Below the pieces are notes generated by a model. That model was not told the DNA's origin, ran no database searches, and was given only the letters and a program-made list of their open reading frames with translations. This document shows, in pieces, positions 30,071 through 55,233 of a stretch of DNA of 64,000 nt (the stretch's first letter is position 1; each line of letters begins with the position of its first letter). The position numbers were made by a program, and so were the translations under genes. This DNA is from Bryopsis sp. KO-2023. Taxonomy: Eukaryota; Chlorophyta; Ulvophyceae; Bryopsidales; Bryopsidaceae. The stretch spans positions 3,224,001 to 3,288,000 of the forward strand of contig BSYQ01000011.1 in the NCBI GenBank assembly GCA_030272585.1, in the 5' to 3' direction.

Positions 30071-33000
30071 ATGCAGTTCTCCTCGCGCACAGGCCTCTTA
30101 CTGCTCATTGTAGCTATTTCCTGGATTGGGGGAAGCTCTGCAGCGACAGAAGAAGAAGTAACCTCCAACGCTGCCCAAGAGATCGGCCACGACTCCAGGC
30201 ATCTGGAAACCTATGTAGGGGCAATCACCTGAAAGCATCCTGTGCATCACTATCGTTGTCACCAGTCGAACGGGGCATACCTTACCTGTCAATCAAACCT
30301 CACTAATTTTTGTGAATATCGCAAGATTACATAGTTACCTCTGTTCGACTGTTGTTGGCTTTCCAGAGACGTAACAGCTGTGCAAATGTTGAGGAGAGCT
30401 GCGGTGATACCAGATGCTGCAACGTAAGGAAAAAATCCCTTCAACATTTGTCCCTTGGTGTACCTCGCAACGCTCAGCCTCAGCATTGTTGCCCCAAGCA
30501 GTCACGGGATGTTTTAAATACCTGTTTTGTGACCTCAGGGCGACTTGAAATGCCGAAGAAAGTCAGGGAGCAGTGAGAAGCACTGCTGCCTCAAAGACTG
30601 GAGAGTGTGCACTGAAAACAGCCAGTGCTGTTACAAAGGTTGTGTCGACAAGGTGGATGGTTGGGGAGATAAATTGGGAATGAAAGTTTGCGGGACCGAA
30701 TCCACTTGTAAGCCAACGGGACATTGGTGCAGGAGGGATTCGGATTGCTGTGGTGGATGGGTAAGGATTGCAACACACAGGGAGCAATACCGTGATAATA
30801 ATATATACTTGTGAACACATTTTCTGGGTCAACTCCCCCACGCTGTGTAATTAATCTTGCGCAGTCACAGGTCGGTTTATGTTTCAACTCAACATCAACC
30901 GAGTCCATTTGCCGCATTTTACAATGAAGATGTTTCGCCGCTTCACTGTTCCTCACTTCAATTTTCTTCTTTTGTTGTTATTAATACAGCGCCAGAAGTG
31001 CTGGGACGGAAAGTGTTGCAGGAAAGAAAAGAGGGAATGCTCTACAGATGATCAGTGTTGTGGAACCATGGATTGCATCAATAATGTACGAAAGAAGATG
31101 CAAAGCACTGCCCTTCAGAGAGTTGGCACCTTGATATTTATTAAATGTACTGTGCGTAGAGAACTTATATACGTTTACACATCAAGAAAATTCAAAAAAC
31201 GTTTCGATACATCAACCGCAAAACATAATCTACCAGGAAATGTATTTTTTTTGTTAATACTCACTAGTTTGTTTGAGTACAGCAATGCAGGAAAGCGTGC
31301 GCTGAACTCCAAGGGGACTGCAAAGACTCAAGATGCTGCAAGGTGATGTTCTGTTTCATTTTTTCCCAGCGTCCATTGACAAAGAAGCACTTGTGAATAC
31401 GAAAAAAGTCTTCAAAAGGGGATCGCTACCCCAACATTTGGACAGTTGTTCTGCTCATAACGCACATGTAAAACGCCTACCAGAATCATAGCTCCGTACG
31501 TGGCGAACCGCACGAGCAAAAGTTCCTCTTTTAAGAACAAACATCTGAGGACTTTCTCCAATCCAAACCACAGGAGTGTGTCGACAAGTCGCACGTTTCC
31601 AAAACATTTCCCTGTGTATTATTTTACAAAAGACCAGCCGCGGTGCCTGAGAGTGGGAAACACGGAGCCGAAAGTGTTTTTGTTTCGAATGCTAGGACGA
31701 GAACGCAACATGCAGAAAAACTGGAATCTGGTCGAGGCAGTGCTGTCTGCCACGCGATGAAAGCTGTTCAAGCGACGGGGAATGCTGTAACGATCTCAAA
31801 TGTGATTTCAAGGAGAACAAGTTTGGCGATCCCATTAGGTCTATGGGGAGGAAGTGCGTGAATAACAGATGCGACGACAAAAAGAAAACCGGAGAGCAGT
31901 GCTCCTCCAACCAAGAGTGCTGCAAGGTAGAGTAACGGAGCAGCGAGTTTCATGGATCCATCAAATCCAAAATATACAGGCATTTTGCCGGATTTTGTGT
32001 TTGCACGTTTCGGAGAAGCTCTCCCAATGAAAAAAATCTGAGGCGCCTCTGAACCTAGCCGCTGTATCTAAACTCGTTACAGGTGCTGAAGTGCAAAGAT
32101 GACAAGTGTTGTCGACCAGATTGGAGCGACTGCTCGAAGTCAGAGGACTGTTGTTCGGACTACTGCGACGAGAACGGGGTAAGGGGTAATTCGTGTCTTA
32201 TATTGTAATTATCGGTTAGTGTTCAAGGCGACCAGCACACTGACATCGTCGTGAGACCCCAATCAATCAGTTAGGAACGGAGAAGCCACCAGTTTCGAAG
32301 TACCAACGTCTTGTGCACATTCACGTGAATGTCTCTAAAAGTAAATGTGCTCCTGTGAATGATGAACATATTGTGTGTACGGCGGATAGCCAGGAGCAAA
32401 CTTCGACTTGATTCCATTTGTGTTGTGTGGGTGTATCCTCAGAAATGTATGGAGAAGCCCTGCTCAGGATTAGGAGAGGATTGCGATTCGAAGAGTTGCT
32501 GTGATGTGAGAATTCCTTCAAATGAAAGAAGAAAAAATGAAATATATAGATGAATGCTATTGGATGTTGAAACTCCTGGGAGATCTTCTTTATATTGCTT
32601 TCCTTCGCCATAGTTGCCAGAGTGACACCCCGACCCCCAAAGTGGCAAAGAATATCCCCAAAGTGATCTATTCTTAATGGACCAACGAGCGAGGGAGCTC
32701 CAATAACGGAAAAACATCGAGACAAAAATAAAAATCCTTTCCGAGTCCTGGATGCCTTTGAACTTCGAATTCAACAGCTTTTGCTTTTTTTTTTTCTTGA
32801 GGAAAGAAAATAATTCATTTGCGCTCAAAAAATTCTAGGATGCCAATGCGCAATGCCTGGAGCCCGTATTCGCCCCTCGAAAAAACATATGCTGCAGAAC
32901 GAAGTATGAACCCTGCGACTCGGACAAAGAATGCTGCGGAGGGAGCTGCGCTCCTGAGGAAGATGAGTTTGGCAATATCCCTGACAGAGAAAAGAAGATA

Positions 33001-36000
33001 TGCTTCGGTAACTCTTGCAAAGATGATGGTCTACTTTCCACGGGGCAAGGACCTTGCCAGGGGAACGATGAAAAGTGTTGTGGCTACGAAAGGGTGCGAA
33101 AGAAACGACTCTATGTAACCAGAGAATCCCTTCACGTTCATGAGCTTCCCCCTAGACGAAAATGCAACCAGCCCCCAATATGGTTGCGTACGAGTATCCC
33201 TGACAGGGCCGAATATCCTCGAAGCGAAAAGAAATGTATGGTGATCTGGATTGCTTGAAAACGCAGGGCTCCAACAAGTGCATGAGCGATATATGCTGTC
33301 GTCCCGACTCAAAACAGTGCGAAGCAAACGAGGATTGCTGCTCCAAGATGTGCCACCAAAAGGTAAATCCAACAGAGACTCATGCTTGCAAACTAAAGGC
33401 GTACGTCCCTTAACCGTCCAGACTTTTGCTCTGATTTGCGAGTACGAGCGGTAGAACATTGGCTTTTTTCTACAGTCGCAAATATTGCAGCATGAATAAG
33501 CATACCGAAGTACGAATCCCCCAACAGATAACTGGAGGTATGTGGTGGAGCAAAACTCAATCTCTCTAATATGTTCAACTTGTGCTCCAGAGGTGCATAC
33601 CGTCATGCACTGATGAAGGAGAATGCACCAATCACGACGACTGTTGTGGATCAAACCAATGCTACGACAATGTAAGCGCCGTACATAACCATAAAACATT
33701 CATTCTGCTGCCCTTGATTCAATGCTTTAGAAATTATTCAGTTTCGATTCTTTACTTCCTCCAGTGTGACAATCATCCCATCCAAGCTCTTCACGATAGA
33801 AACAAACAAAACCATACCAACAATTTGTACTCTTCAAAAATCTTCTTATTCACGATCTCAACCTTGTGCACCACCAACTGCCGACTTCTAAAAATATTCT
33901 TCTTTTATTTCCTTCATTCAAAAAGAAATCTCCTCCAACACGATTCATTGATCCATATTGAAAAAAAAAATCGTTTTTCTTTTGCCTTTTGAAAACAAAC
34001 ATCGAAACAAAATATACAACCAATGATAACTCTTCTTGACGCATGCATGACTAATATGCCTCGGTTCAAAACTTTCCACAACAAAATGTTAAGCTTATAT
34101 ATCCTGGTGTCTAATTAGAAATGCACGGATTGCGTTGCCTCCGGCAAGATGTGCACCGCTTCGGATGATTGTTGCGGAGATCACACATGCTACGACGGGG
34201 TGAGGGGGACACATATATTGGATGCTCATCTTTCCCAACGTGTTATTTTCTCCGTTCCAAGATGTTGAAATTGTGTTTGTCTTGTTTTCGTGTAGGCATG
34301 CACGGATTGCGTTGCCTCCGGCAAGATGTGCACCGCTTCGGATGATTGTTGCGGAGATCACACATGCTACGACGGGGTGAGGGGGACACATATTTTGGAT
34401 GCTCATCTTCCCCACCGCATTATTTTCTCCGTTCCAAGATAATGAAATTGTGTTTGTCTTGTTTTCGTGTAGGCATGCACGGATTGCATTGCCTCCGGCA
34501 AGATGTGCACCGCTTCGGATGATTGTTGCGGAGATCACACATGCTACGACGGGGTGAGGGGGACACATATGTTGGATGCTTAGCTTCCCCACCGTGTTAT
34601 TTCCTCCATTTCAAAATGTTGAAATTGTGTTTGTCTTGTTTTCGTGTAGGAATGCACGGATTGCGTTGCCTCCGGCAAGATGTGCACCGCTTCGGATGAT
34701 TGTTGCGGAGATCACACATGCTACGACGGGGTGAGGGGGACACATATATTGGATGCTCATCTTCCCCACCGCATTATTTTCTCCGTTCCAAGATGTTGAA
34801 ATTGTGTTTGTCTTGTTTTCGTGTAGAAATGCATGGATTGCGTTGCCTCCGGCAAGATGTGCACCGCTTCGGATGATTGTTGCGGAGATCACACATGCTA
34901 CGACGGGGTGAGAGAGACACATATGTTGGATGCTTATCTTCCCCACCGCATTATTTTCTCCGTTCCAAGATGTTGAAATTGTGTTTGTCTTGTTTTCGTG
35001 TAGGAATGCACGGATTGCGTTGCCTCCGGCAAGATGTGCACCGCTTCGGATGATTGTTGCGGAGATCACACATGCTACGACGGGGTGAGAGGGACACATA
35101 TTTTGGATGCTCATCCTCCCCACCGCATTATTTCTCCGTTCCAAGATGTTGAAATTGTGTTTGTCTTGTTTTCGTGTAGGCATGCACGGATTGCGTTGCC
35201 TCCGGCAAGATGTGCACCGCTTCGGATGATTGTTGCGGAGATCACACATGCTACGACGGGGTGAGGGGGACACATATTTTGGATCCTCATCTTCCCCACC
35301 GCATTATTTTCTCCGTTCCAAGATGTTGAAATTGTGTTTGTCTTGTTTTCGTGTAGGCATGCACGGATTGCGTTGCCTCCGGCAAGATGTGCACCGCTTC
35401 GGATGATTGTTGCGGAGATCACACATGCTACGACGGGGTGAGGGGGACACATATTTTGGATCCTCATCTTCCCCACCGCATTATTTTCTCCGTTCCAAGA
35501 TGTTGAAATTGTGTTTGTCTTGTTTTCGTGTAGGCATGCACAGATTGCGTTGCCTCCGGCAAGATGTGCACCGCTTCGGATGATTGTTGCGGAGATCACA
35601 CATGCTACGACGGGGTGAGGGGAACATATATGTTGGATGCTTATCTTCCCCACCGCGTTATTTCCTCCGTTTCAAAATGTTGATATTGTGTTTGTCTTGT
35701 TTTCGTGTAGGCATGCACGGATTGCGTTGCCTCCGGCAAGATGTGCACCGCTTCGGATGATTGTTGCGGAGATCACACATGCTACGACGGGGTGAGGGGG
35801 ACACATATGTTGGATGCTTAGCTTGTCCTCCCCATTATTTCCTCCGTTCCAAGATGTTGAAATTGTGTTTGTCTTGTTTTCGTGTAGGCATGCACGGATT
35901 GCGTTGCCTCCGGCAAGATGTGCACCGCTTCGGATGATTGTTGCGGAGATCACACATGCTACGACGGGGTGAGGGGGACACATATGTTGGATGCTTAGCT

Positions 36001-39000
36001 TGTCCTCCCCATTATTTCCTCCGTTCCAAGATGTTGAAATTGTGTTTGTCTTGTTTTCGTGTAGGCATGCACGGATTGCGTTGCCTCCGGCAAGATGTGC
36101 ACCGCTTCGGATGATTGTTGCGGAGATCACACATGCTACGACGGGGTGAGAGAGACACATATGTTGGATGCTTAACTTCCCCACCGCGTTATTTTCTCCG
36201 TTCCAAGATGTTGATATTGTGTTTGTCTTGTTTTCGTGTAGGCATGCACGGATTGCGTTGCCTCCGGCAAGATGTGCACCGCTTCGGATGATTGTTGCGG
36301 AGATCACACATGCTACGACGGGGTGAGGGGGACACATATTTTGGATGCTCATCTTCCCCACCGCATTATTTTCTCCGTTCCAAGATAATGAAATTGTGTT
36401 TGTCTTGTTTTCGTGTAGGCATGCACGGATTGCGTTGCCTCCGGCAAGATGTGCACCGCTTCGGATGATTGTTGCGGAGATCACACATGCTACGACGGGG
36501 TGAGAGAGACACATATGTTGGATGCTTAGCTTCTCCACCCCCTTATTTCCTCCGTTTCAAAATGTTGAAATTGTGTTTGTCTTGTTTTCGTGTAGGCATG
36601 CACAGATTGCGTTGCCTCCGGCAAGATGTGCACCGCTTCGGATGATTGTTGCGGAGATCACACATGCTACGACGGGGTGAGGGGAACATATATGTTGGAT
36701 GCTTATCTTCCCCACCGCGTTATTTCCTCCGTTTCAAAATGTTGAAATTGTGTTTGTCTTGTTTTCGTGTAGGCTTGCACGGATTGCGTTGCCTCCGGCA
36801 AGATGTGCACCGCTTCGGATGATTGTTGCGGAGATCACACATGCTACGACGGGGTGAGGGGGACACATATGTTGGATGCTTAGCTTGTCCTCCCCCTTAT
36901 TTCCTCCGTTTCAAAATGTTGAAATTGTGTTTGTCTTGTTTTCGTGTAGGCATGCACGGATTGCGTTGCCTCCGGCAAGATGTGCACCGCTTCGGATGAT
37001 TGTTGCGGAGATCACACATGCTACGACGGGGTGAGAGAGACACAAATGTTGGATGCTCAGCTTCCCCACCCCCTTAATTCCTCCGTTCCAAGATGTTGAA
37101 ATTGTGTTTGTCTTGTTTTCGTGTAGGCATGCACGGATTGCGCTGCCTCCGGCAAGATGTGCACCGCTTCGGATGATTGTTGCGGAGTTCACACATGCTA
37201 CGACGGGGTGAGGGGGTCACATATGTTGGATGCTTAGCTTCCCCACCGCATTATTTTCTCCGTTCCAAGATGTTGAAATTGTGTTTGTCTTGTTTTCGTG
37301 TAGGCATGCACGGATTGCGTTGCCTCCGGCAAGATGTGCACCGCTTCGGATGATTGTTGCGGAGATCACACATGCTACGACGGGGTGAGGGGGACACATA
37401 TTTTGGATGCTCATCTTCCCCACCGCATTATTTTCTCCGTTCCAAGATAATGAAATTGTGTTTGTCTTGTTTTCGTGTAGGCATGCACGGATTGCGTTGC
37501 CTCCGGCAAGATGTGCACCGCTTCGGATGATTGTTGCGGAGATCACACATGCTACGACGGGGTGAGGGGGACACATATGTTGGATGCTTAGCTTGTCCTC
37601 CCCCTTATTTCCTCCGTTTCAAAATGTTGAAATTGTGTTTGTCTTGTTTTCGTGTAGGTATGCACGGATTGCGTTGCCTCCGGCAAGATGTGCACCGCTT
37701 CAGATGATTGTTGCGGAGATCACACATGCTACGACGGGGTGAGAGAGACACAAATGTTGGATGCTCAGCTTCCCCACCCCCTTAATTCCTCCGTTCCAAG
37801 ATGTTGAAATTGTGTTTCTCTTGTTTTCGTGTAGGCATGCACGGATTGCGTTGCCTCCGGCAAGATGTGCACCGCTTCGGATGATTGTTGCGGAGATCAC
37901 ACATGCTACGACGGGGTGAGGGGGACACATATTTTGGATCCTCATCTTCCCCACCGCATTATTTTCTCCGTTCCAAGATGTTGAAATTGTGTTTGTCTTG
38001 TTTTCGTGTAGGCATGCACAGATTGCGTTGCCTCCGGCAAGATGTGCACCGCTTCGGATGATTGTTGCGGAGATCACACATGCTACGACGGGGTGAGGGG
38101 AACATATATGTTGGATGCTTATCTTCCCCACCGCGTTATTTCCTCCGTTTCAAAATGTTGATATTGTGTTTGTCTTGTTTTCGTGTAGGCATGCACGGAT
38201 TGCGTTGCCTCCGGCAAGATGTGCACCGCTTCGGATGATTGTTGCGGAGATCACACATGCTACGACGGGGTGAGGGGGACACATATGTTGGATGCTTAGC
38301 TTGTCCTCCCCATTATTTCCTCCGTTCCAAGATGTTGAAATTGTGTTTGTCTTGTTTTCGTGTAGGCATGCACGGATTGCGTTGCCTCCGGCAAGATGTG
38401 CACCGCTTCGGATGATTGTTGCGGAGATCACACATGCTACGACGGGGTGAGGGGGACACATATGTTGGATGCTTAGCTTGTCCTCCCCATTATTTCCTCC
38501 GTTCCAAGATGTTGAAATTGTGTTTGTCTTGTTTTCGTGTAGGCATGCACGGATTGCGTTGCCTCCGGCAAGATGTGCACCGCTTCGGATGATTGTTGCG
38601 GAGATCACACATGCTACGACGGGGTGAGAGAGACACATATGTTGGATGCTTAACTTCCCCACCGCGTTATTTTCTCCGTTCCAAGATGTTGATATTGTGT
38701 TTGTCTTGTTTTCGTGTAGGCATGCACGGATTGCGTTGCCTCCGGCAAGATGTGCACCGCTTCGGATGATTGTTGCGGAGATCACACATGCTACGACGGG
38801 GTGAGGGGGACACATATTTTGGATGCTCATCTTCCCCACCGCATTATTTTCTCCGTTCCAAGATAATGAAATTGTGTTTGTCTTGTTTTCGTGTAGGCAT
38901 GCACGGATTGCGTTGCCTCCGGCAAGATGTGCACCGCTTCGGATGATTGTTGCGGAGATCACACATGCTACGACGGGGTGAGAGAGACACAAATGTTGGA

Positions 39001-42000
39001 TGCTTATCTTCTCCACCGTGTTATTTTCTCCGTTCCAAGATGTTGAAATTGTGTTTGTCTTGTTTTCGTGTAGGAATGCACGGATTGCGTTGCCTCCGGC
39101 AAGATGTGCACCGCTTCGGATGATTGTTGCGGAGATCACACATGCTACGACGGGGTGAGGGGAACATATATGTTGGATGCTTATCTTCCCCACCGCGTTA
39201 TTTCCTCCGTTTCAAAATGTTGAAATTGTGTTTGTCTTGTTTTCGTGTAGGCTTGCACGGATTGCGTTGCCTCCGGCAAGATGTGCACCGCTTCGGATGA
39301 TTGTTGCGGAGATCACACATGCTACGACGGGGTGAGGGGGACACATATGTTGGATGCTTAGCTTGTCCTCCCCCTTATTTCCTCCGTTTCAAAATGTTGA
39401 AATTGTGTTTGTCTTGTTTTCGTGTAGGCATGCACGGATTGCGTTGCCTCCGGCAAGATGTGCACCGCTTCGGATGATTGTTGCGGAGATCACACATGCT
39501 ACGACGGGGTGAGAGAGACACAAATGTTGGATGCTCAGCTTCCCCACCCCCTTAATTCCTCCGTTCCAAGATGTTGAAATTGTGTTTGTCTTGTTTTCGT
39601 GTAGGCATGCACGGATTGCGCTGCCTCCGGCAAGATGTGCACCGCTTCGGATGATTGTTGCGGAGTTCACACATGCTACGACGGGGTGAGGGGGTCACAT
39701 ATGTTGGATGCTTAGCTTCCCCACCGCATTATTTTCTCCGTTCCAAGATGTTGAAATTGTGTTTGTCTTGTTTTCGTGTAGGCATGCACGGATTGCGTTG
39801 CCTCCGGCAAGATGTGCACCGCTTCGGATGATTGTTGCGGAGATCACACATGCTACGACGGGGTGAGGGGGACACATATTTTGGATGCTCATCTTCCCCA
39901 CCGCATTATTTTCTCCGTTCCAAGATAATGAAATTGTGTTTGTCTTGTTTTCGTGTAGGCATGCACGGATTGCGTTGCCTCCGGCAAGATGTGCACCGCT
40001 TCGGATGATTGTTGCGGAGATCACACATGCTACGACGGGGTGAGGGGGACACATATGTTGGATGCTTAGCTTGTCCTCCCCCTTATTTCCTCCGTTTCAA
40101 AATGTTGAAATTGTGTTTGTCTTGTTTTCGTGTAGGTATGCACGGATTGCGTTGCCTCCGGCAAGATGTGCACCGCTTCGGATGATTGTTGCGGAGATCA
40201 CACATGCTACGACGGGGTGAGAGAGACACAAATGTTGGATGCTCAGCTTCCCCACCCCCTTAATTCCTCCGTTCCAAGATGTTGAAATTGTGTTTGTCTT
40301 GTTTTCGTGTAGGCATGCACGGATTGCGTTGCCTCCGGCAAGATGTGCACCGCTTCGGATGATTGTTGCGGAGTTCACACATGCTACGACGGGGTGAGGG
40401 GGACACATATGTTGGATGCTTAGCTTCCCCACCCCCTTAATACCTCCGTTCCAAGATGTTGAAATTGTGTTTGTCTTGTTTTCGTGTAGGCATGCACGGA
40501 TTGCGTTGCCTCCGGAAAGATGTGCACCGCTTCGGATGATTGTTGCGGAGATCACACATGCTACGACGGGGTGAGAGAGACACATATGTTGGATGCTTAG
40601 CTTCTCCACCCCCTTATTTCCTCCGTTTCAAAATGTTGAAATTGTGTTTGTCTTGTTTTCGTGTAGGCATGCACGGATTGCGTTGCCTCCGGCAAGATGT
40701 GCACCGCTTCGGATGATTGTTGCGGAGATCACACATGCTACGACGGGGTGAGGGGAACATATATGTTGGATGCTTATCTTCCCCACCGCGTTATTTCCTC
40801 CGTTTCAAAATGTTGAAATTGTGTTTGTCTTGTTTTCGTGTAGGCATGCACGGATTGCGTTGCCTCCGGCAAGATGTGCACCGCTTCGGATGATTGTTGC
40901 GGAGATCACACATGCTACGACGGGGTGAGAGAGTTACATATGTTGGATGCTTAACTTCCCCACCGCGTTATTTTCTCCGTTCCAAGATGTTGAAATTGTG
41001 TTTGTCTTGTTTTCGTGTAGGCATGCACGGATTGCGTTGCCTCCGGCAAGATGTGCACCGCTTCGGATGATTGTTGCGGAGATCACACATGCTACGACGG
41101 GGTGAGGGGGACACATATGTTGGATGCTTAGCTTGTCCTCCCCAATATTTCCTCCGTTCCAAGATGTTGAAATTGTGTTTGTCTTGTTTTCGTGTAGGAA
41201 TGCACGGATTGCGTTGCCTCCGGCAAGATGTGCACCGCTTCGGATGATTGTTGCGGAGATCACACATGCTACGACGGGGTGAGAGAGTTACATATGTTGG
41301 ATGCTTAGCTTCCCCACCGCGTTATTTTCTCCGTTCCAAGATGTTGAAATTGTGTTTGTCTTGTTTTCGTGTAGGCATGCACGGATTGCGTTGCCTCCGG
41401 CAAGATGTGCACCGCTTCGGATGATTGTTGCGGAGATCACACATGCTACGACGGGGTGAGAGAGACACAAATGTTGGATGCTTATCTTCCCCACCGTGTT
41501 ATTTTCTCCGTTCCAAGATGTTGAAATTGTGTTTGTCTTGTTTTCGTGTAGGAATGCACGGATTGCGTTGCCTCCGGCAAGATGTGCACCGCTTCGGATG
41601 ATTGTTGCGGAGATCACACATGCTACGACGGGGTGAGAGAGTTACATATGTTGGATGCTTAACTTCCCCACCGCGTTATTTTCTCCGTTCCAAGATGTTG
41701 AAATTGTGTTTGTCTTGTTTTCGTGTAGGCATGCACGGATTGCGTTGCCTCCGGCAAGATGTGCACCGCTTCGGATGATTGTTGCGGAGATCACACATGC
41801 TACGACGGGGTGAGGGGGACACATATGTTGGATGCTTAGCTTGTCCTCCCCCTTATTTCCTCCGTTTCAAAATGTTGAAATTGTGTTTGTCTTGTTTTCG
41901 TGTAGGCATGCACGGATTGCGTTGCCTCCGGCAAGATGTGCACCGCTTCGGATGATTGTTGCGGAGATCACACATGCTACGACGGGGTGAGAGAGACACA

Positions 42001-45000
42001 AATGTTGGATGCTCAGCTTCCCCACCCCCTTAATTCCTCCGTTCCAAGATGTTGAAATTGTGTTTGTCTTGTTTTCGTGTAGGAATGCACGGATTGCGTT
42101 GCCTCCGGCAAGATGTGCACCGCTTCGGATGATTGTTGCGGAGATCACACATGCTACGACGGGGTGAGGGGGACACATATGTTGGATGCTTAGCTTGTCC
42201 TCCCCATTATTTCCTCCGTTCCAAGATGTTGAAATTGTGTTTGTCTTGTTTTCGTGTAGGAATGCACGGATTGCGTTGCCTCCGGCAAGATGTGCACCGC
42301 TTCGGATGATTGTTGCGGAGATCACACATGCTACGACGGGGTGAGAGAGACACATATGTTGGATGCTTAGCTTCCCCACCGCGTTATTTTCTCCGTTCCA
42401 AGATGTTGAAATTGTGTTTGTCTTGTTTTCGTGTAGGCATGCACGGATTGCGTTGCCTCCGGCAAGATGTGCACCGCTTCGGATGATTGTTGCGGAGATC
42501 ACACATGCTACGACGGGGTGAGAGAGACACAAATGTTGGATGCTTATCTTCCCCACCGTGTTATTTTCTCCGTTCCAAGATGTTGAAATTGTGTTTGTCT
42601 TGTTTTCGTGTAGGAATGCACGGATTGCGTTGCCTCCGGCAAGATGTGCACCGCTTCGGATGATTGTTGCGGAGATCACACATGCTACGACGGGGTGAGA
42701 GAGTTACATATGTTGGATGCTTAGCTTCCCCACCGCGTTATTTTCTCCGTTCCAAGATGTTGAAATTGTGTTTGTCTTGTTTTCGTGTAGGCATGCACGG
42801 ATTGCGTTGCCTCCGGCAAGATGTGCACCGCTTCGGATGATTGTTGCGGAGATCACACATGCTACGACGGGGTGAGGGGGACACATATGTTGGATGCTTA
42901 GCTTGTCCTCCCCCTTATTTCCTCCGTTTCAAAATGTTGAAATTGTGTTTGTCTTGTTTTCGTGTAGGCATGCACGGATTGCGTTGCCTCCGGCAAGATG
43001 TGCACCGCTTCGGATGATTGTTGCGGAGATCACACATGCTACGACGGGGTGAGAGAGACACAAATGTTGGATGCTCAGCTTCCCCACCCCCTTAATTCCT
43101 CCGTTCCAAGATGTTGAAATTGTGTTTGTCTTGTTTTCGTGTAGGAATGCACGGATTGCGTTGCCTCCGGCAAGATGTGCACCGCTTCGGATGATTGTTG
43201 CGGAGATCACACATGCTACGACGGGGTGAGGGGGACACATATGTTGGATGCTTAGCTTGTCCTCCCCATTATTTCCTCCGTTCCAAGATGTTGAAATTGT
43301 GTTTGTCTTGTTTTCGTGTAGGAATGCACGGATTGCGTTGCCTCCGGCAAGATGTGCACCGCTTCGGATGATTGTTGCGGAGATCACACATGCTACGACG
43401 GGGTGAGAGAGACACATATGTTGGATGCTTAGCTTCCCCACCGCGTTATTTTCTCCGTTCCAAGATGTTGAAATTGTGTTTGTCTTGTTTTCGTGTAGGC
43501 ATGCACGGATTGCGTTGCCTCCGGCAAGATGTGCACCGCTTCGGATGATTGTTGCGGAGATCACACATGCTACGACGGGGTGAGAGAGACACAAATGTTG
43601 GATGCTTATCTTCCCCACCGTGTTATTTTCTCCGTTCCAAGATGTTGAAATTGTGTTTGTCTTGTTTTCGTGTAGGAATGCACGGATTGCGTTGCTTCCG
43701 GCAAGATGTGCACCGCTTCGGATGATTGTTGCGGAGATCACACATGCTACGACGGGGTGAGAGAGTTACATATGTTGGATGCTTAGCTTCCCCACCGCGT
43801 TATTTTCTCCGTTCCAAGATGTTGAAATTGTGTTTGTCTTGTTTTCGTGTAGGCATGCACGGATTGCGTTGCCTCCGGCAAGATGTGCACCGCTTCGGAT
43901 GATTGTTGCGGAGATCACACATGCTACGACGGGGTGAGGGGGACACATATGTTGGATGCTTAGCTTGTCCTCCCCCTTATTTCCTCCGTTTCAAAATGTT
44001 GAAATTGTGTTTGTCTTGTTTTCGTGTAGGCATGCACGGATTGCGTTGCCTCCGGCAAGATGTGCACCGCTTCGGATGATTGTTGCGGAGATCACACATG
44101 CTACGACGGGGTGAGAGAGTTACATATGTTGGATGCTTAACTTCCCCACCGCGTTATTTTCTCCGTTCCAAGATGTTGAAATTGTGTTTGTCTTGTTTTC
44201 GTGTAGGCATGCACGGATTGCGTTGCCTCCGGCAAGATGTGCACCGCTTCGGATGATTGTTGCGGAGTTCACACATGCTACGACGGGGTGAGGGGGACAC
44301 ATATGTTGGATGCTTAGCTTCCCCACCCCCTTAATACCTCCGTTCCAAGATGTTGAAATTGTGTTTGTCTTGTTTTCGTGTAGGCATGCACGGATTGCGT
44401 TGCCTCCGGAAAGATGTGCACCGCTTCGGATGATTGTTGCGGAGATCACACATGCTACGACGGGGTGAGAGAGACACATATGTTGGATGCTTAGCTTCTC
44501 CACCCCCTTATTTCCTCCGTTTCAAAATGTTGAAATTGTGTTTGTCTTGTTTTCGTGTAGGCATGCACGGATTGCGTTGCCTCCGGCAAGATGTGCACCG
44601 CTTCGGATGATTGTTGCGGAGATCACACATGCTACGACGGGGTGAGGGGAACATATATGTTGGATGCTTATCTTCCCCACCGCGTTATTTCCTCCGTTTC
44701 AAAATGTTGAAATTGTGTTTGTCTTGTTTTCGTGTAGGCATGCACGGATTGCGTTGCCTCCGGCAAGATGTGCACCGCTTCGGATGATTGTTGCGGAGAT
44801 CACACATGCTACGACGGGGTGAGAGAGTTACATATGTTGGATGCTTAACTTCCCCACCGCGTTATTTTCTCCGTTCCAAGATGTTGAAATTGTGTTTGTC
44901 TTGTTTTCGTGTAGGCATGCACGGATTGCGTTGCCTCCGGCAAGATGTGCACCGCTTCGGATGATTGTTGCGGAGATCACACATGCTACGACGGGGTGAG

Positions 45001-48000
45001 GGGGACACATATGTTGGATGCTTAGCTTGTCCTCCCCATTATTTCCTCCGTTCCAAGATGTTGAAATTGTGTTTGTCTTGTTTTCGTGTAGGCATGCACG
45101 GATTGCGTTGCCTCCGGCAAGATGTGCACCGCTTCGGATGATTGTTGCGGAGATCACACATGCTACGACGGGGTGAGAGAGACACATATGTTGGATGCTT
45201 AGCTTCCCCACCGCGTTATTTCCTCCGTTTCAAAATGTTGAAATTGTGTTTGTCTTGTTTTCGTGTAGGCATGCACGGATTGCGTTGCCTCCGGCAAGAT
45301 GTGCACCGCTTCGGATGATTGTTGCGGAGATCACACATGCTACGACGGGGTGAGAGAGACACAAATGTTGGATGCTTATCTTCCCCACCGTGTTATTTTC
45401 TCCGTTCCAAGATGTTGAAATTGTGTTTGTCTTGTTTTCGTGTAGGAATGCACGGATTGCGTTGCCTCCGGCAAGATGTGCACCGCTTCGGATGATTGTT
45501 GCGGAGATCACACATGCTACGACGGGGTGAGAGAGACACAAATGTTGGATGCTCAGCTTCCCCACCCCCTTAATTCCTCCGTTCCAAGATGTTGAAATTG
45601 TGTTTGTCTTGTTTTTCGTGTAGGCATGCACGGATTGCGTTGCCTCCGGCAAGATGTGCACCGCTTCGGATGATTGTTGCGGAGATCACACATGCTACGA
45701 CGGGGTGAGAGAGATACAAATATTGGATGCTCAGCTTCCCCACCCCCTTAATTCCTCCGTTCCAAGATGTTGAAATTGTGTTTGTCTTGTTTTCGTGTAG
45801 GCATGCACGGATTGCGTTGCCTCCGGCAAGATGTGCACCGCTTCGGATGATTGTTGCGGAGTTCACACATGCTACGACGGGGTGAGGGGGACACAAATTT
45901 TGGATCCTCATCTTCCCCACCGCATTATTTTCTCCGTTTCAAAATGTTGAAATTGTGTTTGTCTTGTTTTCGTGTAGGCATGCACGGATTGCGTTGCCTC
46001 CGGCAAGATGTGCACCGCTTCGGATGATTGTTGCGGAGATCACACATGCTACGACGGGGTGAGGGGGACACATATGTTGGATGCTTAGCTTGTCCTCCCC
46101 CTTATTTCCTCCGTTTCAAAATGTTGAAATTGTGTTTGTCTTGTTTTCGTGTAGGCATGCACGGATTGCGTTGCCTCCGGCAAGATGTGCACCGCTTCGG
46201 ATGATTGTTGCGGAGTTCACACATGCTACGACGGGGTGAGGGGGACACATATGTTGGATGCTTAGCTTCCCCACCCCCTTAATACCTCCGTTCCAAGATG
46301 TTGAAATTGTGTTTGTCTTGTTTTCGTGTAGGCATGCACGGATTGCGTTGCCTCCGGCAAGATGTGCACCGCTTCGGATGATTGTTGCGGAGATCACACA
46401 TGCTACGACGGGGTGAGGGGGACACATATGTTGGATGCTTAGCTTGTCCTCCCCCTTATTTCCTCCGTTTCAAAATGTTGAAATTGTGTTTGTCTTGTTT
46501 TCGTGTAGGCATGCACGGATTGCGTTGCCTCCGGCAAGATGTGCACCGCTTCGGATGATTGTTGCGGAGATCACACATGCTACGACGGGGTGAGAGAGTT
46601 ACATATGTTGGATGCTTAACTTCCCCACCGCGTTATTTTCTCCGTTCCAAGATGTTGAAATTGTGTTTGTCTTGTTTTCGTGTAGGCATGCACGGATTGC
46701 GTTGCCTCCGGCAAGATGTGCACCGCTTCGGATGATTGTTGCGGAGTTCACACATGCTACGACGGGGTGAGGGGGACACATATGTTGGATGCTTAGCTTC
46801 CCCACCCCCTTAATACCTCCGTTCCAAGATGTTGAAATTGTGTTTGTCTTGTTTTCGTGTAGGCATGCACGGATTGCGTTGCCTCCGGAAAGATGTGCAC
46901 CGCTTCGGATGATTGTTGCGGAGATCACACATGCTACGACGGGGTGAGAGAGACACATATGTTGGATGCTTAGCTTCTCCACCCCCTTATTTCCTCCGTT
47001 TCAAAATGTTGAAATTGTGTTTGTCTTGTTTTCGTGTAGGCATGCACGGATTGCGTTGCCTCCGGCAAGATGTGCACCGCTTCGGATGATTGTTGCGGAG
47101 ATCACACATGCTACGACGGGGTGAGGGGAACATATATGTTGGATGCTTATCTTCCCCACCGCGTTATTTCCTCCGTTTCAAAATGTTGAAATTGTGTTTG
47201 TCTTGTTTTCGTGTAGGCATGCACGGATTGCGTTGCCTCCGGCAAGATGTGCACCGCTTCGGATGATTGTTGCGGAGATCACACATGCTACGACGGGGTG
47301 AGAGAGTTACATATGTTGGATGCTTAACTTCCCCACCGCGTTATTTTCTCCGTTCCAAGATGTTGAAATTGTGTTTGTCTTGTTTTCGTGTAGGCATGCA
47401 CGGATTGCGTTGCCTCCGGCAAGATGTGCACCGCTTCGGATGATTGTTGCGGAGATCACACATGCTACGACGGGGTGAGGGGGACACATATGTTGGATGC
47501 TTAGCTTGTCCTCCCCATTATTTCCTCCGTTCCAAGATGTTGAAATTGTGTTTGTCTTGTTTTCGTGTAGGCATGCACGGATTGCGTTGCCTCCGGCAAG
47601 ATGTGCACCGCTTCGGATGATTGTTGCGGAGATCACACATGCTACGACGGGGTGAGAGAGACACATATGTTGGATGCTTAGCTTCCCCACCGCGTTATTT
47701 CCTCCGTTTCAAAATGTTGAAATTGTGTTTGTCTTGTTTTCGTGTAGGCATGCACGGATTGCGTTGCCTCCGGCAAGATGTGCACCGCTTCGGATGATTG
47801 TTGCGGAGATCACACATGCTACGACGGGGTGAGAGAGACACAAATGTTGGATGCTTATCTTCCCCACCGTGTTATTTTCTCCGTTCCAAGATGTTGAAAT
47901 TGTGTTTGTCTTGTTTTCGTGTAGGAATGCACGGATTGCGTTGCCTCCGGCAAGATGTGCACCGCTTCGGATGATTGTTGCGGAGATCACACATGCTACG

Positions 48001-51000
48001 ACGGGGTGAGAGAGACACAAATGTTGGATGCTCAGCTTCCCCACCCCCTTAATTCCTCCGTTCCAAGATGTTGAAATTGTGTTTGTCTTGTTTTTCGTGT
48101 AGGCATGCACGGATTGCGTTGCCTCCGGCAAGATGTGCACCGCTTCGGATGATTGTTGCGGAGATCACACATGCTACGACGGGGTGAGAGAGATACAAAT
48201 ATTGGATGCTCAGCTTCCCCACCCCCTTAATTCCTCCGTTCCAAGATGTTGAAATTGTGTTTGTCTTGTTTTCGTGTAGGCATGCACGGATTGCGTTGCC
48301 TCCGGCAAGATGTGCACCGCTTCGGATGATTGTTGCGGAGTTCACACATGCTACGACGGGGTGAGGGGGACACAAATTTTGGATCCTCATCTTCCCCACC
48401 GCATTATTTTCTCCGTTTCAAAATGTTGAAATTGTGTTTGTCTTGTTTTCGTGTAGGCATGCACGGATTGCGTTGCCTCCGGCAAGATGTGCACCGCTTC
48501 GGATGATTGTTGCGGAGATCACACATGCTACGACGGGGTGAGGGGGACACATATGTTGGATGCTTAGCTTGTCCTCCCCCTTATTTCCTCCGTTTCAAAA
48601 TGTTGAAATTGTGTTTGTCTTGTTTTCGTGTAGGCATGCACGGATTGCGTTGCCTCCGGCAAGATGTGCACCGCTTCGGATGATTGTTGCGGAGTTCACA
48701 CATGCTACGACGGGGTGAGGGGGACACATATGTTGGATGCTTAGCTTCCCCACCCCCTTAATACCTCCGTTCCAAGATGTTGAAATTGTGTTTGTCTTGT
48801 TTTCGTGTAGGCATGCACGGATTGCGTTGCCTCCGGCAAGATGTGCACCGCTTCGGATGATTGTTGCGGAGATCACACATGCTACGACGGGGTGAGGGGG
48901 ACACATATGTTGGATGCTTAGCTTGTCCTCCCCCTTATTTCCTCCGTTTCAAAATGTTGAAATTGTGTTTGTCTTGTTTTCGTGTAGGCATGCACGGATT
49001 GCGTTGCCTCCGGCAAGATGTGCACCGCTTCGGATGATTGTTGCGGAGATCACACATGCTACGACGGGGTGAGAGAGTTACATATGTTGGATGCTTAACT
49101 TCCCCACCGCGTTATTTTCTCCGTTCCAAGATGTTGAAATTGTGTTTGTCTTGTTTTCGTGTAGGCATGCACGGATTGCGTTGCCTCCGGCAAGATGTGC
49201 ACCGCTTCGGATGATTGTTGCGGAGTTCACACATGCTACGACGGGGTGAGGGGGACACATATGTTGGATGCTTAGCTTCCCCACCCCCTTAATACCTCCG
49301 TTCCAAGATGTTGAAATTGTGTTTGTCTTGTTTTCGTGTAGGCATGCACGGATTGCGTTGCCTCCGGAAAGATGTGCACCGCTTCGGATGATTGTTGCGG
49401 AGATCACACATGCTACGACGGGGTGAGAGAGACACATATGTTGGATGCTTAGCTTCTCCACCCCCTTATTTCCTCCGTTTCAAAATGTTGAAATTGTGTT
49501 TGTCTTGTTTTCGTGTAGGCATGCACGGATTGCGTTGCCTCCGGCAAGATGTGCACCGCTTCGGATGATTGTTGCGGAGATCACACATGCTACGACGGGG
49601 TGAGGGGAACATATATGTTGGATGCTTATCTTCCCCACCGCGTTATTTCCTCCGTTTCAAAATGTTGAAATTGTGTTTGTCTTGTTTTCGTGTAGGCATG
49701 CACGGATTGCGTTGCCTCCGGCAAGATGTGCACCGCTTCGGATGATTGTTGCGGAGATCACACATGCTACGACGGGGTGAGAGAGTTACATATGTTGGAT
49801 GCTTAACTTCCCCACCGCGTTATTTTCTCCGTTCCAAGATGTTGAAATTGTGTTTGTCTTGTTTTCGTGTAGGCATGCACGGATTGCGTTGCCTCCGGCA
49901 AGATGTGCACCGCTTCGGATGATTGTTGCGGAGATCACACATGCTACGACGGGGTGAGGGGGACACATATGTTGGATGCTTAGCTTGTCCTCCCCATTAT
50001 TTCCTCCGTTCCAAGATGTTGAAATTGTGTTTGTCTTGTTTTCGTGTAGGCATGCACGGATTGCGTTGCCTCCGGCAAGATGTGCACCGCTTCGGATGAT
50101 TGTTGCGGAGATCACACATGCTACGACGGGGTGAGAGAGACACATATGTTGGATGCTTAGCTTCCCCACCGCGTTATTTCCTCCGTTTCAAAATGTTGAA
50201 ATTGTGTTTGTCTTGTTTTCGTGTAGGCATGCACGGATTGCGTTGCCTCCGGCAAGATGTGCACCGCTTCGGATGATTGTTGCGGAGATCACACATGCTA
50301 CGACGGGGTGAGAGAGACACAAATGTTGGATGCTTATCTTCCCCACCGTGTTATTTTCTCCGTTCCAAGATGTTGAAATTGTGTTTGTCTTGTTTTCGTG
50401 TAGGAATGCACGGATTGCGTTGCCTCCGGCAAGATGTGCACCGCTTCGGATGATTGTTGCGGAGATCACACATGCTACGACGGGGTGAGAGAGACACAAA
50501 TGTTGGATGCTCAGCTTCCCCACCCCCTTAATTCCTCCGTTCCAAGATGTTGAAATTGTGTTTGTCTTGTTTTTCGTGTAGGCATGCACGGATTGCGTTG
50601 CCTCCGGCAAGATGTGCACCGCTTCGGATGATTGTTGCGGAGATCACACATGCTACGACGGGGTGAGAGAGATACAAATATTGGATGCTCAGCTTCCCCA
50701 CCCCCTTAATTCCTCCGTTCCAAGATGTTGAAATTGTGTTTGTCTTGTTTTCGTGTAGGCATGCACGGATTGCGTTGCCTCCGGCAAGATGTGCACCGCT
50801 TCGGATGATTGTTGCGGAGTTCACACATGCTACGACGGGGTGAGGGGGACACAAATTTTGGATCCTCATCTTCCCCACCGCATTATTTTCTCCGTTTCAA
50901 AATGTTGAAATTGTGTTTGTCTTGTTTTCGTGTAGGCATGCACGGATTGCGTTGCCTCCGGCAAGATGTGCACCGCTTCGGATGATTGTTGCGGAGATCA

Positions 51001-53714
51001 CACATGCTACGACGGGGTGAGGGGGACACATATGTTGGATGCTTAGCTTGTCCTCCCCCTTATTTCCTCCGTTTCAAAATGTTGAAATTGTGTTTGTCTT
51101 GTTTTCGTGTAGGCATGCACGGATTGCGTTGCCTCCGGCAAGATGTGCACCGCTTCGGATGATTGTTGCGGAGTTCACACATGCTACGACGGGGTGAGGG
51201 GGACACATATGTTGGATGCTTAGCTTCCCCACCCCCTTAATACCTCCGTTCCAAGATGTTGAAATTGTGTTTGTCTTGTTTTCGTGTAGGCATGCACGGA
51301 TTGCGTTGCCTCCGGCAAGATGTGCACCGCTTCGGATGATTGTTGCGGAGATCACACATGCTACGACGGGGTGAGAGAGACACAAATGTTGGATGCTTAT
51401 CTTCCCCACCGTGTTATTTTCTCCGTTCCAAGATGTTGAAATTGTGTTTGTCTTGTTTTCGTGTAGGAATGCACGGATTGCGTTGCCTCCGGCAAGATGT
51501 GCACCGCTTCGGATGATTGTTGCGGAGATCACACATGCTACGACGGGGTGAGAGAGACACATATGTTGGATGCTTAACTTCCCCACCGCGTTATTTTCTC
51601 CGTTCCAAGATGTTGAAATTGTGTTTGTCTTGTTTTCGTGTAGGCATGCACGGATTGCGTTGCCTCCGGCAAGATGTGCACCGCTTCGGATGATTGTTGC
51701 GGAGATCACACATGCTACGACGGGGTGAGAGAGACACATATGTTGGATGCTTATCTTCCCCACCGTGTTATTTTCTCCGTTCCAAGATGTTGAAATTGTG
51801 TTGGTCTTGCTTTCGTGTAGGAGTGCACGGATTGCGCACAACCGGGTGGTGATTGTGATGACCGGGCTGATTGTTGTGGAGAATCTGATGTATGCTTGCA
51901 AAATTCTGTATCAAAGAGTCAATTTGTTTTTATACTGTTTTTCTTTTTTTCCATGGTTCTCCCGATAACAGACAACGCACCTACTCAAAGGGATCCCATA
52001 AGTAGTGACAGGACATTCTAGCGTGAGGGGGCCTGATTTTCGAATTTACGTTTTATTAAGGGGTGCTTTGCGGGGACAACAGTTGATAAGCTCATGAGAA
52101 CTCTTGAGAAAGAAGCCAAGACCGTCAAAGCAAACATTTCTCTGTTATACTGACACAGTTGTTCCCACAGGCGTCCATGTGCATGGATTCGAAGTGCTGT
52201 CTCAAGGACGGGGAAGATTGTGGTGACAACGGCGAATGCTGTGGAAACTGCGTGGAAGGGGTGAGCTGCAGAAAATGGTGGTGCAAATCTCTGACTGTCT
52301 CTTGGCCCTTGAAATCGATTGTTGTTTAAAGTTCACATACGAATCTGAGTTCTTAACGCTTGAAAAGGGCGCTTTGGCTGTTTGGCGTTACAGCCGGGGT
52401 CCAGATCATTAATCTGTTGTGCAATTCGTCATCTTTGTCAGTTTGAATACTTGCAGACCCAGGCAGCGATGCCGTAATACAAGATTCGCCTGTTTCCGTC
52501 AATCCTGTGTGTTTTATTCTTTCTTCCAATTAATCCTAACTTTGTTTTATATTTTTGTTTTGCCAGAAATGTTGCACAGCACCTGGGAATAGCTGCAATC
52601 CTACTAGCACCGAGCATCCTTGCTGCTCAGTAAGCAATGAAGAGCCAATTCGTGGATGAATTTTCCTGTTGCTTTGGGAACGGTTGACATCCAACAACTA
52701 AACGAGCTTTCGAATTTGGCACTAAGTCTCGCTCTGTGTTGTATAGCTCATCAACGTCTATGGCAACACGGTTCCTTATTCGTGCAACGTGAATCATGAC
52801 CCACCAATGGCGACTTGCTGCGTTACCCATGGGGGTTCTTGCAGGGATGATTCACATTGCTGCTTTGGCACGATATGTCGCGCTAGGAGAGACTTTTGGG
52901 GCGAAAAGACAATTGTAGACGGGGAGGAGGACAAAATCTGCATTTTCAAGGAGCAGGAATGCGTTGGAACAAATGAGAGTTGCAAGGACACAAAATGTTG
53001 CAACGAAGCTGCTGAGATGGTGCGTTAGGGGGCGTTGTTTTTTTTTTTCGTTGTTGCATCCGTTTTCGGACTTTTCTAATGTCTGTGTGAAAATTTGCGC
53101 CCCGTTTCTTAGCTGTCTATGCTTTCTGTGTTTCCAGCAATCATTCAATAGCCACAGGTGCTACAATGATGTGTGCAAGAGGTTGCCCAACAGTCCCTGC
53201 ACAGTTAACACTCCCCCTGATCCCTCCGAGTGTCTGTTTGGGATGTGCATGATGCCTATGGACCCAACGGTGAGATCTTTTGAATATTGACTCCTAAATT
53301 CAACAATATTTCAGTTTGAACGGCTTTCCCCTTATCACTCCAAAACGTTTGTTAACAATCCTAACAATTCACCCGACCGTCCTTCGACACCTGCACAATT
53401 TCCTAAGATTTCTTCGACACTCGCAATAGCTGGGTGAATCGAGTTGACGCTTGTATTCTTTGAAGCAATTTCGTTGCCACTGCGATATAAAAAACAGGAC
53501 AGATAGGGACTCTATGGTGGCAACTGTCGTTTTATTAAGAGACGAATTGTACAAACGGCAGGGGTATTGCATGCCAGTAGATACAACTGATTCAAAGCAC
53601 ACGAACAAATAAAACGAAACGCCCTTCCTCTTTGAGTTTTGAAAATCGCTGACTTTTTTAAATCTAACTCTGCAGATTACGGAGACATTCTGCGGTGGCA
53701 TGGGGGGCGACTGA
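30071..53714 (+). CDS. Giant secreted cystine-knot-like repeat protein, about 117 exons
   Basis: Exon 1 (ATG at 30071) encodes a signal peptide (MQFSSRTGLLLLIVAISWIG, then GSSAA); its donor is after 30157 or 30214. Further exons, all phase 0: 30367-30423, 30539-30760, 30990-31085, 31283-31342, 31696-31926, 32083-32178, 32443-32505, 32839-33093, 33267-33362, 33591-33671; then 100 near-identical 81-nt exons from 34119 to 51724; then 51821-51889, 52171-52260, 52567-52629, 52747-53019, 53138-53269, and 53676-53714 (or a read-through stop at 53290). The predicted protein is about 3,370-3,390 residues. Nearly every module has the 'C-x5/6-C-C' core with flanking cysteines, as in cystine-knot (knottin) mini-proteins. 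No transmembrane segment or enzyme domain is seen. It is likely a very long disulfide-rich extracellular or wall protein; its function is unknown. That all exons share one phase and conserve cysteines on this strand argues strongly for coding. Confidence 0.83.
30367..33671 (+). other. Diverged 5' cysteine-module exons of the giant gene
   Basis: Ten exons of 57-255 nt, each with one to three cysteine modules that differ from each other. Examples are CGDTRCCN, CTENSQCCYKGC, CSTDDQCCGTMDC, CSSDGECCNDLKC and CDSDKECCGGSC. Many introns fall just after the paired Cys, so one module is split over two exons. The last of them (33591-33671) already has the 81-nt, 27-residue form of the array (CTNHDDCCGSNQCYDN) and is the closest unamplified relative of the repeat unit. 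Introns here are 150-450 nt and unrelated to each other, unlike those of the array. Confidence 0.8.
35357..40312 (+). repeat. Higher-order repeat: two 14-unit blocks of 2,478 bp
   Basis: Intron variants recur in the same order at a 2,478-bp offset (units at 35357, 37835 and 40313 line up). The two blocks differ at few sites, fewer than neighbouring units within a block. Confidence 0.85.
41375..44029 (+). repeat. Higher-order repeat: 6-unit blocks of 1,062 bp, about 2.5 copies
   Basis: The order of intron variants repeats at 1,062 bp (units at 41375, 42437 and 43499 line up). The run ends where the next, 14-unit family starts. Confidence 0.85.
44030..51290 (+). repeat. Higher-order repeat: three 14-unit blocks of 2,479 bp
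   Basis: Units at 44030, 46509, 48988 line up, as do the private extra T (tttttcgtgtag) and a gagatacaaatattgg intron variant in each copy. I found no difference between the three copies by eye, so they are very recent duplications or an assembly repeat. Confidence 0.85.
51821..53714 (+). other. Diverged 3' cysteine-module exons of the giant gene
   Basis: The first exon (69 nt) still begins ECTDC like the array and then diverges (CDDRADCCGESD). It is followed by CGDNGECCGNC, CCTAPGNSC, a 91-codon exon with CCVTHGGSCRDDSHCCFGTIC and CKDTKCCN, and a 44-codon exon with CYNDVC. The terminal exon may be 53676-53714 (13 codons including stop, one Cys), or translation may end at 53290 if the last donor is not used. 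Confidence 0.75.
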
Positions 53715-54008
53715 GATTGAAAGGATTATTTGTTCGAGGTCAAACGACCCATAGCAATTGCTATTGTTGAAATTTTGAGACCTCTGTTCATGCTCGTGAC
53801 TCCAACAAAGGAAGATTGAAACATTGAATTGACGTTATGGAGGAGACGCCGTTCTTCAACTACCAGAAAAGTTATTCATGAATAGAGCTACAAAAAGAAA
53901 CTATCTGTAGATTAGATAAGTGCCCAGGAAAGGTCTTTGAACATCGGATGCAGCTCTTGCACCTTCATTGTTGTTGGCAGAAGCTGAACATTCCCGTCAG
54001 CTTTGGTA

Positions 54009-54559
54009 CCGTGGATAGGCTAATTTTTGCGCGCATGAACTATTGCGTGTTTATTTTTCTCGGGGACTAATTTTTGCGATTCAATCAGGTCGCGAAAATT
54101 AGTCCAAAGCGAAATTTAGGCCTTCGCAGAAAATAAGCAAGGCGCAAATAAGTGCCTTTTCAAAAACTGGTCAGTACCTGTTGTCGACACAAAAAAACCC
54201 ACCCAAAAGCAATGCTACAGACACCAATGTACACTGGTAGATACAAACACCAAATCTGGTTCAATCAGTGCTCACAGCCCCCTCCAGTCAGCCAACATGT
54301 GACCCAATTGCACAAAAACTACCCGTTCCATGGATCCGGTCACATTCACTCAAACAGTGGACGCAAGAAGGTCTTCACCCCTCCCCTTGTGACGCACAAC
54401 TCCAACCCTTTAAACGCCAGAAAAGCTGCCTCATTGGTTGCGTTGGTGGAATTTCTGCGCGTGCTCAGTGTTTGCGGTGCCTTAATTCTTGTGACACTAA
54501 TTCTTGCGATTTTTTCCGATCGCAAAATTAATCCAAGCAAAAATTAGCTTACCTGCGGT
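54009..54559. mobile_element. Short TIR element (MITE-like), TA target
   Basis: Imperfect terminal inverted repeats (left CCGTGGATAGGCTAATTTTTG; right end is its reverse complement at 17 of 21 positions) are flanked by TA on both sides, as for Tc1/mariner-type elements. Inside are two hairpins built on a ctaatt-tgcga motif, at about 54068-54105 and 54489-54533. It has no transposase, so it is a non-autonomous copy. Confidence 0.5.
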
Positions 54560-55076
54560 AACTGGCCAGGCGTACCGGCATAAACTGTGTGGTTATGGGC
54601 TATCATGTTTGTATGTTTGTTTTTTTTTCACCATAATGGTCTGCCAGATAATGACCGCTATTTCATAACAAACAGAGATGCCCACAAGGACCAAACTTTC
54701 TGTTGATGTCCAACATGCCTGAGACCGGCGCCAGACCGGTCCACAGGTCCGACACCGGTCGAAGACAGGCCATTTCTTGTCTCAAACCGGTGAACCACCT
54801 TCGGGTATCCTGATTTCTCCGTGAAGTAGTTCCTACCAGCCGCATTCCCACGACAGGAAAAAATCCAACCAAAACCACCACAAACCAAAAAAAAGAACGA
54901 GGACACCCCCGCAATTGTTTCTTACACATTTTTTACACACGAAACAAACAAACACGCAATCTTTTCCAGCGCAATCGAACTTCGATTCGCAATCGCTAGC
55001 GCTCACACTTTCTCACACACTTTCGCGGCACACACGCCATTAACACGGGTGAGTCTGCAACCAAACAAAGAACATT
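54560..55076. other. Spacer before the retroelement
   Basis: Contains several ccggt-type short inverted motifs around 54720-54800 and no gene. It flanks the 3' LTR of the Gypsy element. Confidence 0.4.
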
Positions 55077-55233
55077 TGTTATGGCCAAACGCGAGTTCCG
55101 ACCCTCGCGGCACAATGCAACTGTGATAAGAATTAATTTACAACCCGTTGTCTCTCCCTAAATCACCAACTCTAACCGTTGTCCGACATAACATCCCTAT
55201 GTCAGACTCAACCTCAGTCGGTCATATCAACCA
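55077..55233 (-). repeat. 3' LTR of the Gypsy element
   Basis: Runs TG...CA on the plus strand. Its inner end abuts a polypurine tract (minus strand GAAGGGGGGAG). It is short for a chromovirus, and the inner boundary is inferred from the tract because the other LTR copy is incomplete. Confidence 0.6.

Follow-up and report, generated by a model that had tools for sequence, protein, structure and literature searches.

A predicted chain of about 118 inhibitor cystine knots, nearly all split by introns, in the green alga Bryopsis sp. KO-2023

Knottin toxins carry mainly one inhibitor cystine knot (ICK), in some cases two, with the disulfide pairing I-IV, II-V, III-VI. Dumpy of Drosophila is a secreted protein of great length assembled from small disulfide modules of the EGF and DPY types, not ICK. 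In the Hc1a spider family, a duplication within one exon gave rise to the two-knot toxins, and one trivalent member is also described; in the sections of that report drawn on here, its authors describe a role for introns as so far unreported for bivalent toxins and consider DkTx to be of different origin (PMC13172734). Secreted cysteine-rich repeat proteins (SCREPs) are found in bacteria and eukaryotes, and the sections of their survey cited here give repetition of up to 8 chitin-binding and 12 Sel1-like domains and leave ICK out of the 20 most abundant folds; the survey's main text does not contain the word "exon" (PMC6262176). The locus presented here lies in a 64,000-nucleotide stretch (the window, C11:3224001-3288000) of the genome of Bryopsis sp. 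KO-2023, for which 91.1 Mb on 28 contigs were available to genome-wide searches. Bryopsis is a siphonous, single-celled green seaweed of the Ulvophyceae. One gene in this window, here called the knot gene, on balance probably encodes a secreted chain of about 118 ICK modules.

The knot gene occupies positions 30071-53714 on the + strand and was modelled as 117 exons and 116 introns giving one open chain, in line with the single gene of about 117 exons proposed in a preliminary description of this DNA. All introns (116/116) have GT..AG borders and lie in phase 0, every exon length is divisible by three, and the sole stop codon stands at the end of the 10,185 coding bases. None of the 116 introns could be retained without truncating the chain or shifting its frame: 113 carry an in-phase stop and the other 3 have a frame-shifting length. 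The predicted product has 3,394 residues, a mass of 348.6 kDa and a pI of 4.06; its 713 cysteines (21% of residues) bear out the expectation of more than 600 in about 3,400 residues. The 17 exons outside the central array were set by hand from splice signals and frame, with the cysteine pattern as guide, and the phase of these flank exons alone is consequently no independent proof of the model; G+C in the flanks is 0.51 in exons and 0.41 in introns. The features of the gene, all on the + strand, are as follows.

30071..30214, +, exon 1: start codon, then an N terminus that by eye resembles a signal peptide (MQFSSRTGLLLLIVAISWIGGSSA...)
30367..31085, +, exons 2-4: supermodule 1, four knots, from the hand model, alignment and knot pattern
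31283..32178, +, exons 5-7: supermodule 2, four knots; exon 6 is 31696-31926
32443..33362, +, exons 8-10: supermodule 3, four knots, of which knots 3 and 4 were separated by hand, the pattern having fused them
33591..33671, +, exon 11: diverged 81-bp exon of the array type (RCIPSCTDEGECTNHDDCCGSNQCYDN)
34119..51724, +, exons 12-111: the array, 100 exons of 81 bp spaced 176-178 bp
43853..51289, +, higher-order repeat of the array: three identical adjacent copies of a 2,479-bp block of 14 units
51821..51907, +, exon 112: array-like start (ECTDC), then diverging; edge of the array
52171..52260, +, exon 113: bulk of one more knot, whose last Cys lies in exon 114
52567..53269, +, exons 114-116: supermodule 4, its final knot degenerate
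53676..53714, +, exon 117: C terminus and stop codon

By alignment, exons 2-4, 5-7, 8-10 and 114-116 form four homologous three-exon units of 125-156 residues, here called supermodules, which are 27-34% identical to the first and share 23 invariant columns, 20 of them Cys. Their exon lengths (57/222/96, 60/231/96, 63/255/96 and 63/273/132 bp) recur along with their sequence, which supports the hand-placed flank exons. The arrangement first described, a signal peptide followed only by six-cysteine modules, holds for the array and fails for the flanks, which consist mostly of these larger supermodules. We regard the locus as very likely a real protein-coding gene of Bryopsis, one that would be transcribed and spliced.

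The array itself is as first described, with 100 near-identical 27-residue units each on its own exon. Every one of the 100 exons is exactly 81 bp long and retains all six cysteines, with the translation xCTDCVASGKMCTASDDCCGDHTCYDG and few variants. Tandem Repeats Finder returned a 177-bp unit in 100.1 copies at 34121-51836; the step between units is 177 bp in 95/99 cases, 178 in 3/99 and 176 in 1/99, the extra or missing base always being intronic. The introns measure 95-97 bp, and all 99 start with GTGAG and finish with TCGTGTAG. A 27-base core pattern, searched with at most 2 mismatches, occurs 100 times genome-wide, always inside the array, so that the array as a satellite spread through the genome was rejected. 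The modules contain one Lys in 98/100 cases and Arg in none, with five Asp residues in 88/100 and four in 12/100; the array has a pI of about 4 and a net charge of -401. Neither dibasic sites nor sequons were found in its 2,700 residues. The commonest 27-residue tryptic form of the module (MCTASDDCCGDHTCYDGACTDCVASGK) is computed to occur 66 times in the chain.

In this array the knot frame does not coincide with the exon. A 27-residue exon has the order C-x2-C-x6-C-x5-CC-x4-C, which puts the CC pair fourth and fifth, and it was rejected as the knot because a shifted frame gives the ICK order common to the flank knots. In that frame the order C-C-CC-C-C runs from the second Cys of one exon through the first Cys of the next (CVASGKMCTASDDCCGDHTCYDGxC, spacing C-x6-C-x5-CC-x4-C-x4-C), and the earlier assignment of one knot-like module to each exon gives way to a knot that spans two. 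Adjacent knots are separated by the linker TD in 100 of 116 pattern-derived linkers and by MD once. The pattern recovers 117 knots; the count by hand is 118 plus one degenerate knot, because the pattern fused two adjacent knots of supermodule 3. With the array removed, the flank protein still contains the pattern 17 times, whereas 1,000 shuffles gave 1.1 on average and never more than 4. In 104 of 116 cases the exon border follows the fifth Cys and stands one residue ahead of the sixth, and the same position ends supermodules 1-3 and exon 11, although not supermodule 4. Array introns are in phase 0 and immediately precede the sixth Cys, so that a complete knot results whichever two array exons are joined. 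Joining by recombination or by exon skipping would then preserve both frame and knot, leaving the length of the array free to drift.

The modules are very probably ICK domains. Their six cysteines follow the knottin order C-C-CC-C-C with loops in the ICK range, and a profile search of solved chains returned ICK toxins as top matches, the best with E 0.0012. Comparison of the exon-6 knot with solved knottins gave a weak to modest fold likeness, with 1 of 19 rows in a second comparison being an IGF-binding-protein domain. By spacing, profile match and this modest likeness of the flank knot, the cystine-knot-like character claimed in the preliminary description is sustained, although not for a knot within a single exon. 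Each knot would close with the usual ICK pairing. The predicted chain also shows the tandem repetition of Cys-rich domains that is typical of SCREPs. Conotoxin_I2 (PF17557) fell below its cut-off on a four-module piece (25.5 bits vs 27), and its 3 genome-wide matches, the best of which (E 2.17) lies in the array, included none over the cut-off. An NCBIfam scan, and an Rfam scan of the window at the gathering score, gave no informative outcome.

Dickkopf_N (PF04706) scored 32.3 bits against a cut-off of 25 on the four-module piece, and none of seven single knots scanned reached the cut-off. Membership of the Dickkopf family was rejected, as the best stretch spans only positions 22-51 of the 51-position profile. 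Genome-wide, 13 Dickkopf_N matches were found (1 over the cut-off), of which 4 fall in the array and the other 9 on contigs C8 and C12, in tandem Cys modules that lack the CC pair and follow a different frame. Tandem Dickkopf_N-like Cys modules of this different frame, without the CC pair, lie in long unbroken frames at two Bryopsis loci other than the knot gene, L024:4084-5604 (-) and L023:4432-5556 (-).

The array contains only 13 distinct exon sequences, 29 distinct introns and 37 distinct units. When units are coded as letters, nested blocks emerge, the largest being the identical 14-unit block of 2,479 bp that stands three times in succession; three copies without a difference indicate that the array is expanding or being homogenised. 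On sequence grounds, the identical blocks are read here as the product of recent unequal exchange or conversion; they may alternatively stem from an assembly error. Growth of the array by unequal exchange is very likely, and its origin would lie in an exon-11-like ancestor multiplied by unequal crossing-over between near-identical exon-intron units. Exons are less variable than the intron core (11/81 vs 28/67 variable columns, P = 1.5e-4; intron columns taken from 96 of 100 units, 4 units of other intron length being excluded), and non-synonymous variable columns, at 6 in ~64 sites, are likewise fewer than those of the intron core (P = 2.1e-5). This contrast between exon and intron fits a spliced gene and is not clean proof of protein selection. 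Codon scoring of the array exon placed the coding frame best, at 0.162, with introns at -0.17.

Several observations count against a selected, expressed chain of knots. Synonymous variable columns (5 in ~17 sites) are not distinguishable in frequency from those of the intron core (P = 0.41), mean pairwise synonymous diversity (0.0127) is hardly above the non-synonymous value (0.0102) with intronic diversity at 0.085, and the final 24 bp of the intron are also little variable (3/24 columns); this pattern points to recent homogenisation as a shaping force, and not to protein selection alone. In the flanks, codon scoring gave the coding frame 0.047, beaten by another frame at 0.113. As to the fold, single-sequence searches of solved chains were weak (best E 0.2 and 0.097), and the predicted structure of exon 6 was poor (mean pLDDT 57, pTM 0.47), its best Foldseek match having E 0.24 and venom peptides making up 9 of the 20 matches, with other proteins making up 11. 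Two protein searches queried with the N-terminal part, over lengths of ~1,213-3,860 aa and 346-1,100 aa, gave no entry from the knot gene, and another gene of the same contig does have a database protein.

A structural extracellular role is possible and the likeliest of the functions considered, and is put forward tentatively from the composition of the chain. The N terminus is signal-like and a hydrophobic tail is lacking (both judged by eye); together with the lack of dibasic sites and sequons and the charge of -401, this argues for a soluble or matrix structural protein over a peptide precursor. The product would be an extracellular, acidic, protease-resistant and mechanically stiff fibre in the cell wall or a wound plug, with a length of the order of 0.2-0.3 micrometre if ~2 nm is assumed per knot. 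In the portions of the literature cited here, wound repair in Bryopsis proceeds through membrane-free protoplasts, with the lectin bryohealin involved in aggregation (PMC3252328), and a viscous cytoplasm has been suggested as an aid to quick repair (PMC8929694). The most extended form of this proposal is a ~349-kDa protein of ~118 knots, nearly all completed by the splicing of two exons and proof against exon skipping and unequal crossing-over, so that its length would vary freely between individuals; it would form the disulfide-armoured fibre of the wall or wound plug and might be the wound-healing protein that was studied cytochemically in Bryopsis in 1972; taken as a whole, this is a doubtful conjecture.

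A different role would be that of a large multivalent binder or sink, whose many identical knots would attach with high avidity to calcium, a sugar or the surface of bacteria and might, for instance, gather the contents of a wounded cell into clumps. The Asp content of the modules and the charge of the array would suit such a function, multivalency raises avidity in two-domain toxins according to the sections cited (PMC6262176), and lectins are needed for aggregation of Bryopsis protoplasts in the corresponding part of that literature (PMC3252328); no lectin or other known binding domain appeared in the Pfam results for the pieces scanned, and this role is considered rather unlikely. Cutting of the chain into ~100 small knottin peptides for defence or signalling is also unlikely. 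Cyclotide precursors provide the polyprotein model for such peptides, knottin peptides are typically small secreted effectors, and a run of near-identical knots with only two residues between neighbours (TD in 100/116) is what a precursor of this kind might contain. Bryopsis is moreover known for chemical defence and wound response, as described in the part of the source used here (PMC3252328). Against this stand the complete lack of dibasic sites in the 2,700-residue array, a TD linker that would leave a protease little room beside the knot, and a strong acidity unlike that of most antimicrobial peptides.

Two further explanations deny that the chain is made at all. The array may be a satellite-like repeat inside an old knottin gene that is decayed or silent and has ceased to be expressed as a single chain, as might be suggested by the identical 2.5-kb blocks, by near-equal synonymous and non-synonymous diversity and by the two length-limited database searches in which no protein of the gene was found; but the 117-exon model contains no premature stop or frameshift, no Cys has been lost in 100 array exons, exons vary less than the intron core and the core pattern is absent elsewhere in the genome, all of which make this a distinctly improbable outcome. 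That the minus-strand array frames of 220-347 aa are the real product, whether as an antisense gene or a chance frame, is scarcely credible: these frames stay open over a few units because the 177-bp unit is divisible by three, and the three minus frames meet 103, 225 and 115 stops over the array, in which the unit's conserved and variable stretches match plus-strand exon and intron.

If the chain of knots is made as proposed, it would combine giant size with an exceptional density of disulfides (Cys being 21% of its 3,394 residues), and it would be a natural knottin polymer of materials interest that could form an unusually tough natural fibre growing by exon copying. The split-knot exon design offers a clean example of an intron position that makes a repeat array tolerant of recombination and mis-splicing, and the array raises the question of how the spliceosome copes with a transcript that has 100 almost identical exons.

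Elsewhere in the window, a Ty3/gypsy-type retrotransposon with a chromodomain lies downstream of the knot gene at 55413-62964 (-), with frames for gag (60337-61797) and protease-RT-RNase H-integrase (55413-59288); the frame at 62059-62964 has no Pfam match over the cut-off. A repeat search of 53700-64000 found no long terminal repeats, only one 115-nt pair. Upstream, an intronless frame at 7943-10456 (-) is 100% identical to the hypothetical protein BSKO_12119 of Bryopsis sp. KO-2023 and matches FAST kinase-like subdomain 1 and DUF6832. The large frame at 16514-19582 (+) has no Pfam match at E 0.01 and by eye is similar to it in repetitive style. The frame at 11253-12617 (+) has an N-terminal CS domain and C-terminal TPRs, a layout which we take to be that of axonemal dynein assembly factors such as DNAAF4. 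Tandem repeats occur at 5816-5997 (ACCAGGGGAGGG, 12 bp, about 15 copies) and at 19916-20022 (37 bp, about 3 copies).

Within the genome, a search with exon 6 and with flank pieces of 472 and 227 aa found only this locus below E = 1 (next best E 1.27), in a coarse search that diverged copies may escape. Searches for relatives of exon 6 in prokaryote genomes, and of the array and P0003 in viral contigs, gave no useful outcome. A protein search identified two similar proteins among 1,388 candidates, P0002 (E 1.4e-6) and P0003 (E 6.6e-5), and a piece of P0002 led to an open reading frame (ORF) in a metagenome-assembled genome (MAG) of the archaeon Candidatus ainarchaeum, 1 of 39 candidate stretches. 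With one pattern applied to all, P0002 (890 aa, DUF7305) contains 4 knots of the algal frame, P0003 (745 aa) contains 13, and the 560-aa archaeal ORF (L045:1930-3612, +) contains 10 in tandem behind an N terminus that appears membrane-like by eye. The archaeal protein is perhaps a knottin chain on the cell surface; P0003, predicted alone, gave a mean pLDDT of 35. Like the algal chain these proteins have many short linkers, and unlike it they have far fewer knots, which are mutually diverged. Homology and convergence both fit this likeness, the module being so short.

Among described proteins, knottin peptides such as the calcins, atracotoxins, psalmotoxin and theraphotoxins share the six-Cys frame with its adjacent third and fourth Cys; they have mainly one knot, in some cases two, against ~118 in the one predicted algal chain, and no toxin function is implied. 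The comparison with Dumpy and similarly giant extracellular chains composed of small Cys modules is one of working principle only; a Dumpy module (1oig) was a weak profile match (E 0.062). Like SCREPs in the sections of the survey cited (PMC6262176), the algal chain is Cys-rich and built of tandem domains; by its signal-like N terminus, judged by eye, it may be secreted. Spider ICK toxins of the Hi1a/Hc1a family and DkTx resemble it in that tandem ICK domains grow and shrink by recombination between similar domains; as far as the cited sections go, the Hc1a family has no intron between knots, (PMC13172734), whereas in the alga nearly every knot is interrupted by an intron and the duplications took in whole exons. 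The literature matches listed for tandem or algal knots contained nothing on an algal knot chain, and the exon logic of the gene was not found described in the literature examined. The initial impression that no comparable chain was known needs qualifying, in that the frame recurs in chains with 4, 13 and 10 knots, although the predicted ~118 is far longer. With tandem knots of one frame in three other proteins, the algal gene is not a new kind of gene, but an extreme variant of a known architecture.
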